Source: Hemibagrus wyckioides
Taxonomy: Eukaryota > Chordata > Actinopteri > Siluriformes > Bagridae
Length of the DNA: 64,000 bases
Assembly (NCBI RefSeq): GCF_019097595.1
Contig: NC_080735.1
Coordinates: forward strand, 19,833,917-19,897,916
Reading direction: 5' to 3'
Each line of letters begins with the position of its first letter. Within the stretch, counting starts at the first letter, position 1. Under the pieces are notes generated by a model, which did no database searches, was not told where the DNA came from, and saw nothing but the letters and a program-made list of their open reading frames with translations. Made by a program: the position numbers and the translations under genes. This document shows, in pieces, positions 36,512 through 62,662 of the stretch.

Positions 36512-38151
36512 TCAGTGCAGGGTCTCTCGAGTGTTCTCAAAATCCGTAACGTTGCCAGGGCTTTTAAAGCAGCAAATATCACACAGCAACTTCCTGTACT
36601 TCTGCCTCACCTGGAAGTAGAAAAGGATATCATAGACAGCGATATAGGTCAATATGTTTTTGTACTTCTTTTTTAGTACTAGTAAGTTTTCACTATGCCT
36701 CCTTTAATTTTTCTAGCCAGTAAAAGCAATAATCGATATTTTAAAAGGCTATAAGTGAGACATGAAAGTGACTGTTAGGTGAGCACTAACCGCTTGATTG
36801 AGGAGACAGTGGACAATGAAGATGAAGGTGCCCTGCTGGGAGTTGAGGAACAGGAAAACATTAAATAAAACCCCGTCCTTACTGGGGATATACAGGAATA
36901 TCCCATAGCAGCCGAGGATGATAAACTGGGCCAGGCTTTTAAACATCACACGCATCATCATATCTGTTCTATCAGGGTTACTCCTCTGCAGGTTCTCATT
37001 TTTCAGCTGTTTCAGTGTGAAGATCATCATAATGATGATGATGATGTAGAGAGTCATGTTTGACTGCACAGGATTAAAATAGCGAAAGAAAAAAAATCTG
37101 ATGAATTATACACAAAAATGTGCCTCATGGGATCAATCAAGTATATCTATCTATTTGTGTATTATATAGCTATTTAAGATATGAGTGCTATGAATCGCTA
37201 AAAGAGACTGATATATGAATTTGATTTCAATTCTTAATTTCAGTCAGGTCCATAAATATTCAGTCATTGAAATGTTATTGTTATGTGTTAATTATCAATA
37301 CATGAAACATTGTGATCATTGTCAAACGTTTACACATTGAATAAGAGTAAGCTTTAAATTGTATACACTTTGCAACAAAGGTGTCTGTAGTACTCACTGA
37401 AACAGTGAAAAGTATAGGAACGTCAAAGATATCATCTATATCTTTAGTTTCCCAGCATCTAAGGAGAGAACATTTATATAGTCCACATGACATCATATAT
37501 CTTATGAATATAAGAAAAAAACTGTATGAATATTTGGATTATAATGGGTATTGTGAGGAAAATGTCAAAAGACAAATGTCTTCTAATCACTCTCCACACT
37601 TACCCTTCATTCACAATCAGTTTTGAATTAACTAGAGCACACATGATCACCACAACCAGAGGAATGATGTATCCAGTCATAGTTAACCATTTCCAGTTAA
37701 GCCCCTCTTGCCGGTTCAGTCTGATCTGTGATGCTTTCTTTATGAACAGGAAGAGCAACACAGTTTCAATGAACATCCACACAAATGAAGAGACAAAGAA
37801 GAACCATCGGATACCATTCATGACCGCACAGGCTTGCTGGAATAAAAGAGAAAAAAAAAATCATTAGAAAATATTCAGGTATTGATCCCGTTAAATGTTT
37901 ATACGGGTTGTAACAACACTCACTGGGGGCTGTAGAAAGAGATGGAGAGGAGTTTTGAGCAGGTCAAGAAGGTGAAATAGCAGGAGGTTTAAGCACAAGT
38001 TTGTCAGAGCTTTGTTGGTTTCATTCAGGTTCTGACAACAAAATGCAAATGTCAGTAGACACAACGTCAGAAAGACGATTCCCACTCCCTGAGCCATGGA
38101 CATGTTCAACACAGGGTTACAGTGCAGGGATATAGTGGTTCCAAATATTGC
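36512..38151 (-). CDS. Receptor A seven-transmembrane exons and C-terminal tail
   Basis: Exons 37924..38151 (TM1-2), 37604..37836 (TM3-4), 37398..37458 (loop 2), 36791..37063 (TM5-7) and 36512..36610 (tail, TGA). TM1 includes [20 protein letters not shown]3 follows QACAVMNG, keeping the conserved cysteine that pairs with the loop-2 Cys-Trp. TM6 has [18 protein letters not shown] and TM7 [20 protein letters not shown], then RQKYRKLLC in the tail. Donor after TM7 is GTTAGT. The tail is short (about 30 residues), with no obvious PDZ ligand. Confidence 0.9.

Positions 38152-62662: not shown

Follow-up and report, generated by a model that had tools for sequence, protein, structure and literature searches.

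Adhesion GPCRs are described with a GAIN domain that serves as a juxtamembrane device, coupling the ectodomain to the 7TM via cleavage and tethered agonism. In a 2026 consortium review, "the GAIN domain" is located directly outside the membrane, and the accessible part of its text contains neither "multiple GAIN" nor "tandem" (PMC13197933). The phrase "multiple GAIN" is also absent from the accessible text of a GAIN numbering survey, as is "two GAIN" (PMC11697300), and from that of a choanoflagellate survey (PMC12716839), and a phrase search of the open literature for several or tandem GAIN or GPS domains returned no adhesion GPCR paper by title. ADGRE-like genes are described as expanded in fish, with 14 emr-like genes (emrl1-14) in zebrafish, and the available portion of that repertoire paper uses neither "GAIN domains" nor "GPS domains" (PMC4335454). 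Outside the adhesion GPCRs, GAIN domains are known from one more family, the polycystin-1-type proteins (PMC11697300). Canonical cleavage occurs at an H-x-S/T motif with the histidine as base, and the motif alone is insufficient (PMC13062082).

The locus described here lies on NC_080735.1 (C26) of Hemibagrus wyckioides, and the window, that is the whole stretch of DNA analysed, comprises 64,000 nucleotides (C26:19833917-19897916). A preliminary description had proposed one four-GAIN receptor gene and stated that known adhesion GPCRs carry one GAIN; this statement is consistent with published accounts as far as their accessible text goes (e.g. PMC13197933), with the proviso that databases may already hold such models. 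The window holds two multi-GAIN genes, A and B, both on the minus strand. Gene A is, with high probability, one ADGRE-like adhesion GPCR gene with a four-GAIN ectodomain, in which a module would have been duplicated internally before the whole gene was duplicated.

Structure of gene A

The exon chain of gene A was rebuilt exon by exon using homology between cassettes and explicit splice sites. It spans 62662-36512 and comprises 28 exons (3,789 nt) encoding 1,262 amino acids and a stop, with no internal stops and GT-AG at all introns, laid out as a signal, four five-exon GAIN/GPS cassettes, and one 7TM. The preliminary description had given four such units, one 7TM, and ~1,262 residues, which the rebuild reproduced almost to the base, and its cassette junctions (58906 to 56273, 53637 to 52839, and 48949 to 44173) were recovered identically. 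Its observation that a signal stands only ahead of the first cassette and a 7TM only after the last is also true for gene A, as a profile scan found neither between the cassettes.

Signal exon 1 (62644-62662) starts with ATG (MIHLWR), leaves phase 1, and has the donor GTGAGT, and signal exon 2 (62382-62429; GT-AG) encodes a hydrophobic stretch of 15 residues; both resemble their counterparts in gene B. By hydropathy, the N-terminal hydrophobic segment covers residues 8-29. The phase 1 left by the signal exons calls for a small linker exon, and a candidate mini-exon of 11 residues (61294-61325) converts phase 1 to 0. It is weak alone: paired with a 12-residue counterpart in gene B, it had the top score among 80 candidate pairs, a degree of similarity that was matched by 58 of 400 control region pairs, and this weakly placed linker (61325-61294) is the least certain exon of gene A.

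Each cassette consists of exons A-B-C-D-E with phases 0-0, 0-1, 1-1, 1-0, and 0-0, exon E carrying the GPS. Cassette 1 (58906-61070) is made up of exons A 61070-61008, B 60909-60726, C 60616-60506, D 59334-59165, and E 59067-58906, and cassette 2 (53637-56273) of A 56273-56190, B 56063-55883, C 54664-54551, D 54058-53886, and E 53798-53637. Cassette 3 (48949-52839) follows with A 52839-52762, B 52646-52478, C 52339-52220, D 49374-49199, and E 49107-48949, and the membrane-proximal cassette 4 (39139-44173) with A 44173-44096, B 43996-43834, C 43592-43473, D 39571-39402, and E 39297-39139. The 7TM (36512-38151; Pfam 7tm_2 1.3e-22) is encoded by exons TM1 38151-37924, TM2 37836-37604, ECL2 37458-37398, TM3 37063-36791, and a C-terminal exon with the stop (36610-36512). 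Transposon-like open frames were noted by eye in introns of gene A at 44700-48600, 49800-51300, and 56600-57400.

A second multi-GAIN gene in the window

Searching the window with exon pieces (tblastn) returned seven GPS exons instead of four. The inventory of four cassettes in the preliminary description stands for gene A and had overlooked the cassettes, 7TM, and signal of gene B (34638-15360), to which the additional three GPS exons belong. Gene B has 23 exons and an open frame of 1,031 amino acids, with a signal of its own ahead of three cassettes and a single 7TM; its introns are all GT-AG, and the C-terminal exon and stop are present. Signal exon 1 (34620-34638) starts with MILLLT, signal exon 2 (34188-34238) encodes 16 residues, and the linker mini-exon (33025-33059; 12 residues) is again weak alone. 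Cassette 1 (30258-32596) comprises exons A 32596-32516, B 31806-31623, C 31523-31416, D 30705-30524, and E 30410-30258, cassette 2 (24319-27836) A 27836-27759, B 27667-27520, C 27403-27278, D 24910-24738, and E 24477-24319, and the membrane-proximal cassette 3 (20845-23523) A 23523-23446, B 23017-22834, C 22695-22579, D 21266-21085, and E 21003-20845. The 7TM (15360-19538; Pfam 7tm_2 8.5e-21) has exons TM1 19538-19338, TM2 18139-17907, ECL2 16085-16022, TM3 15921-15649, and a C-terminal exon with the stop (15467-15360).

Stops near the exons B of gene B were considered as frame damage and rejected, as they are located upstream of the acceptors. In the TM2 exon (17907-18139), an arginine replaces the gene A cysteine at the start of TM3 (RAV vs CAV), and the ECL2 cysteine is kept; in most receptors of this sort, the TM3-start cysteine pairs with ECL2. 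Elsewhere in the window, an open frame on the plus strand (4126-4608) had no Pfam or NCBIfam match at 0.01; I presume that it resembles meteorin or meteorin-like, and it is a possible synteny marker. A scan with Rfam gave nothing at gathering score.

Genes A and B both have a secretin-type 7TM, a GAIN with GPS by the membrane, and a hydrophobic N terminus with a long ectodomain, which are features of adhesion GPCRs (class B2). The best PDB matches of both 7TMs are adhesion GPCRs (ADGRL3, ADGRE1, and ADGRE5 for gene A); against solved structures, gene A matched ADGRL3 first when the GAIN was included, with ADGRE1 as its best 7TM-only chain, and the 7TM of gene B matched ADGRE1 and then ADGRE5. 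Ranked by best matches to solved structures, ADGRE (EMR/CD97) would be the nearest relatives.

Reality of the exons and GAIN identity

Profiles of 11 exon types, run over the whole window in six frames, matched below 1e-3 only at the 47 modelled exons belonging to these types, with the next best match at 0.07, and on the reversed sequence none of 21 matches fell below 1e-3 (best 0.0024). As these profiles had been trained on the modelled exons themselves, the scan was repeated with leave-one-out profiles excluding the tested exon, which re-found 30 of the 35 window cassette exons at E <1e-3 and the GPS exons at 9.4e-11 to 7.9e-23. The five misses, exon A of A1, A2, and A4 and exon C of A1 and B1 (cassettes being named by gene and position), rest on splice sites and position. 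An assembly duplicate was rejected as the origin of the cassettes, which are just 30-45% identical in a window with 0 N.

A cassette-by-cassette Pfam scan placed GPS above cut-off in A3 (41.2 bits), A4 (36.3 bits), B2 (26.4 bits), and B3 (37.2 bits), and below it in A1 and A2 (14.5 and 14.7 bits vs a cut-off of 22.5) and B1. GAIN was below cut-off in every cassette scanned, with a weak signal in A1, A4, B1, B2 (24.4 bits), and B3 and none in A2 and A3. For the profile search that had been suggested for the spliced protein of gene A, this cassette-wise scan yields GPS for cassettes 3 and 4, not for 1 and 2, and GAIN only below threshold. With GPS above threshold in no more than half of the gene A cassettes (two of four) and in two of the three in gene B, routine annotation could undercount serial-GAIN receptors.

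A profile of the seven window cassettes matched the GAIN regions of adhesion GPCRs among solved structures, with ADGRL3 at 1.8e-12 and latrophilin-1 (4dlq) at 4.8e-07 over profile positions 25-225. To avoid leaning on the strong cassettes, further profiles were made of first cassettes only (A1, B1, C1, and F1) and second cassettes only (A2, B2, C2, and F2), genes C and F lying outside the window. These also matched adhesion GPCR GAIN structures: the first-position profile had ADGRL3 as the best (4.3e-08) and latrophilin-1 at 9.5e-05, and the second-position profile again ADGRL3 (6e-13) and latrophilin-1 (4.1e-05). Most structure matches fall on the GPS side (subdomain B), and GAIN subdomain A is less well supported.

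Related genes outside the window

The assembly comprises 790 Mb in 73 contigs, and loci on C26 were scanned with cassette, 7TM, and signal profiles; C26 19977916-20262000 lies outside the scanned loci, and the family may be larger than genes A-F. Gene C (C26:19908770-19898435), with three cassettes and a 7TM, shares the strand of gene A and lies upstream of it. Genes D (C26:19913150-19920397) and E (C26:19938483-19947403), farther upstream on that strand, have one cassette and a 7TM each, and gene F (C26:20276510-20293497), on the opposite strand and ~380 kb from gene A, has four cassettes and a 7TM. Exons B-E were found for all nine cassettes with stop-free translation, which is no independent test of openness, as exon ends in these genes were chosen by a stop-forbidding rule and four of them by hand. 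Exon A of C1, F2, D, and E was located by pattern, and that of cassette 3 of gene F was not found. Gene C was modelled without its last exon, TM3 of gene D did not resolve, and ECL2 was not seen in genes D and E. A hydrophobic signal-like exon, picked by hydrophobicity with no control, precedes the first cassette in all four of these genes (C, D, E, and F).

The single-GAIN neighbours D and E share cassette exon types and phases with genes A and B and belong to the same cluster, but they differ from the multi-GAIN genes in having one cassette at E up to 0.05 and no cysteine after the GPS strand. Their 7TMs are near-identical (98% over the 150 residues compared, dS 0.02) and their GAINs more diverged (78%, dS 0.22), a contrast for which recent conversion of the 7TM is one possible cause among others. 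On C16 (18653178-18908860), ten GPS matches were seen, nine in open frames of 456-502 amino acids and one in a frame of 335, and at the one locus read GPS and 7TM share a single open frame (Pfam 3e-15 and 9.6e-31). By these matches, this is a separate, intron-poor adhesion GPCR cluster, presumably ADGRF-like.

History of the cassettes

Trees of the 16 cassettes of genes A-F, built from exons B-E as protein and DNA, grouped the cassettes by position in the gene and not by gene. Support (SH-aLRT/bootstrap, protein) was 99/100 for A2+F2, 99/99 for A3+F3, 94/93 for A4+F4, 95/95 for B3+C3, and 78/85 for B2+C2; the four first cassettes came together with 81/75 (protein) and 91/71 (DNA), and the four second cassettes more weakly with 65/73 and 48/64. 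Constraining the tree by position had zero cost, and grouping by gene was rejected at -176 log units for protein (AU p=1.4e-5) and -182 for DNA (AU p=2.5e-4). Building up the cassettes separately in the A/F line and the B/C line gave AU p=0.012 (protein) and 0.025 (DNA), with SH values of 0.052 and 0.072, i.e. not rejected by SH. With the seven cassettes of the window alone, gene-specific amplification costs 8-24 log units, the highest AU values among such trees being 0.21, 0.11, and 0.32; its exclusion from unresolved user trees of these seven was not upheld by an exhaustive test of 945 trees, and the 16-cassette test did exclude it.

From the grouping by position and the constraint tests, the ancestor of these genes probably already had three or more ordered cassettes before they separated, and by these trees the serial GAINs are inherited as ordered units. 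The D and E cassettes are placed, with low support, close to those of the last position, consistent with either gain or loss of outer cassettes. As the module is symmetric, with phase 0 at both ends, copies can be added without a frame break. Duplication may have begun with this five-exon GAIN module inside an ancestral gene, its copies being joined in frame, and the multi-GAIN gene would then have been copied whole to give genes A, B, C, and F with 4, 3, 3, and 4 cassettes.

Intervals between cassettes

The preliminary description had argued for one gene from in-frame joining without a stop. This argument is weak: with phase 0 at both cassette ends, cassettes join in frame automatically, and open frames show coding only. 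The intervals between cassettes bear on the reading as a row of separate single-GAIN genes that lost 7TM and signal, leaving secreted or dead pieces, for which the single-GAIN genes D and E speak insofar as tandem gene duplication does occur in this cluster. At E up to 0.05, the five intervals that separate cassettes in genes A and B contained no 7TM, signal, or extra cassette, and the five in genes C and F no 7TM, signal, or cassette. Separate genes would need 7TM and signal to have been lost at all 10 inner boundaries in four genes, with no remnant at this threshold and with the cassettes staying coding; the distal cassettes are moreover constrained, and two of the window's five intervals, A2-A3 and B2-B3, are under 0.8 kb (797 and 795). 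A row of separate genes is consequently very improbable.

Homology of the equally long A2-A3 and B2-B3 introns was rejected, as their similarity was not above that of shuffles. The longest inter-cassette introns reach 4.8 kb and contain transposon-like debris (by eye), and six intron matches between genes A and B join non-corresponding introns and are presumably transposons; the A3-A4 and B1-B2 introns share a stretch of ~1,127 bp at 85% identity. Poly(A) signals number eight in the 0.8 kb A2-A3 interval and none in the 1 kb past the gene B stop, at an overall 2.4 per kb; as a test they are uninformative.

Hydropathy showed no TM-like stretch at residues 30-978 of gene A or 21-740 of gene B, between signal and 7TM, so that by this measure (hydropathy, with no signal predictor) ~720-950 residues of ectodomain follow the hydrophobic N terminus. 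In genes A and B, the inner cassettes are coding and ordered, and have no signal or 7TM of their own. One gene with four serial GAINs, as first proposed, remains the best reading of gene A: gene B and two genes outside the window repeat the arrangement of several cassettes before one 7TM with a signal-like exon ahead, the cassettes are related by position, genes A and B have no inner TM-like stretch, and the cleavage motif is absent from all 10 distal GAINs. As a gene structure, serial GAIN cassettes with one 7TM are very likely, and a single transcript holding all cassettes is likely.

Selection on cassettes and 7TM

Pairwise dN/dS (NG86), for which dS reached 0.97 and thus near saturation, was 0.43 for A1/F1, 0.64 for A2/F2, 0.56 for A3/F3, 0.81 for A4/F4, 0.68 for B1/C1, 0.39 for B2/C2, 0.73 for B3/C3, and 0.61 for D/E. 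Distal pairs thus range over 0.39-0.68 and proximal pairs over 0.61-0.81, which suggests that distal cassettes are on the whole as constrained as proximal ones or more; for the 7TM, values were 0.31 (A/F) and 0.63 (B/C). For some tetrapod lineages, Wittlake and co-workers report positive-selection signatures that concern families C, E, F, and G (PMC8584163). In neutral simulations (400 runs per cassette), 0.3-1.5% of copies were still open at 0.3 substitutions per site and <=0.3% at 0.45. Open frames at such divergence indicate that the cassettes are coding, and are silent on which transcript holds them.

Alternatively, gene B, or A and B both, could be copies of a multi-GAIN receptor that are unexpressed or have recently become pseudogenes. 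The rather high dN/dS of 0.4-0.8 would suit this, as would the loss from gene B of one GPS cysteine pair and the TM3 cysteine and a weak donor (GTTAAA) at exon D of its cassette 1. Against such decay, frames are open throughout, every intron is GT-AG, and the C-terminal exon and stop are in place, and a dead or silent gene B, alone or together with gene A, is distinctly unlikely.

Cleavage motifs and cysteines

At the cleavage position, the membrane-proximal GAINs have the triplets HIS (A4), HLS (B3), HMS (C3), QMS (F4), HLS (D), and HLS (E), and the distal ones YMT (A1), SCP (A2), QLD (A3), RMS (B1), HLA (B2), SLT (C1), RVG (C2), DIT (F1), KQG (F2), and LLA (F3). The autoproteolysis motif H-x-S/T, which in A4 and B3 marks a site predicted by sequence alone, is present in 5/6 proximal and 0/10 distal GAINs (Fisher p=0.0014, a descriptive value that treats related cassettes as independent) and, within the multi-GAIN genes, in 3/4 proximal (A4, B3, and C3) and 0/10 distal GAINs (p=0.011, with the same caveat of kinship). 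As gene F has QMS, the motif is not always kept proximally. RMS (B1) was scored as non-canonical; for the RLS of ADGRB1 and ADGRB3, a proper base is reported missing, yet fragments of cleaved size were found in mouse brain (PMC13062082). The distal GAINs are probably uncleavable.

This distribution also bears on whether splicing picks one or a few GAIN cassettes per transcript, giving single-GAIN receptors with exchangeable ectodomains. Phase 0 at all boundaries would allow it, as the linker can be joined to any exon A and any exon E to TM1. Use next to the membrane should, however, preserve the cleavage motif, which none of the 10 distal cassettes has done; the three of 14 that keep it (A4, B3, and C3) are all last in their genes. 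The motif is not decisive here, since uncleaved receptors may still signal via the tethered agonist (PMC13062082). Exchangeable cassettes are, on balance, unlikely, and transcripts in which all cassettes are joined remain the preferred reading.

In the GPS of B3 (20845-21003), cysteines 2 and 4 are both replaced by tyrosine and HLS is retained, which suggests that one disulfide is gone and that cleavage is uncertain; this GPS offers a natural test of the need for that disulfide in cleavage. An extra cysteine just past the GPS strand is present in 13 of the 14 cassettes of the multi-GAIN genes (the exception being F2) and absent in D and E, and a cysteine on the N-terminal side is found in 7/7 units of genes A and B, for A1 only via the uncertain linker. 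As a conjecture, pairing of the exon A (or linker) cysteine with that past the GPS strand would staple each unit.

Discussion

From these sequences it can be reasoned that distal and proximal GAINs may divide their tasks. The signal peptide would export the chain and the single 7TM anchor it. The innermost GAIN alone would hold the tethered agonist and cut itself where the H-x-S motif survives, and the outer GAINs, having lost the motif, would stay covalently intact and form a stalk that cannot be cleaved and that offers a binding surface, passing ligand or force to the innermost GAIN. Since each cassette begins and ends in phase 0, a single gene could yield isoforms with anything from one to four GAINs. 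I give roughly even chances to a class of adhesion GPCRs with such a serial-GAIN stalk, in which distal GAINs act as covalent modules for force or ligand and the innermost provides cleavage and agonist, in which one-to-four-GAIN isoforms could arise, and in which a cysteine bracket may staple the units. A natural series of GAINs with motif-less distal members would part the fold from the protease and make the mechanical role of an uncleavable GAIN testable.

Some database entries are chains with more than one GPS. For chains of >800 residues, a large structural survey of GAIN domains kept only the part that precedes the annotated GPS (PMC11697300).

If transcripts confirm them, serial-GAIN receptors would be an unusual design. 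The cassettes align with the GAIN regions of ADGRL3, ADGRL1, ADGRG2, and others, each with one described GAIN. Polycystin-1-type proteins have eleven TM helices and other domains, whereas the GAINs here precede a secretin-type 7TM. Within the ADGRE family (EMR1-4 and CD97), ADGRE1 and ADGRE5 are the nearest solved structures to the 7TM of gene B, and the zebrafish emr-like genes and the present genes perhaps belong to the same broad group; unlike that family, the multi-GAIN genes have three or four GAINs, with no EGF domain among the modelled exons assembled for genes A and B. Compared with the adhesion GPCRs in the accessible text of the consortium review, the genes described here add two or three GAINs further out from the membrane (PMC13197933).
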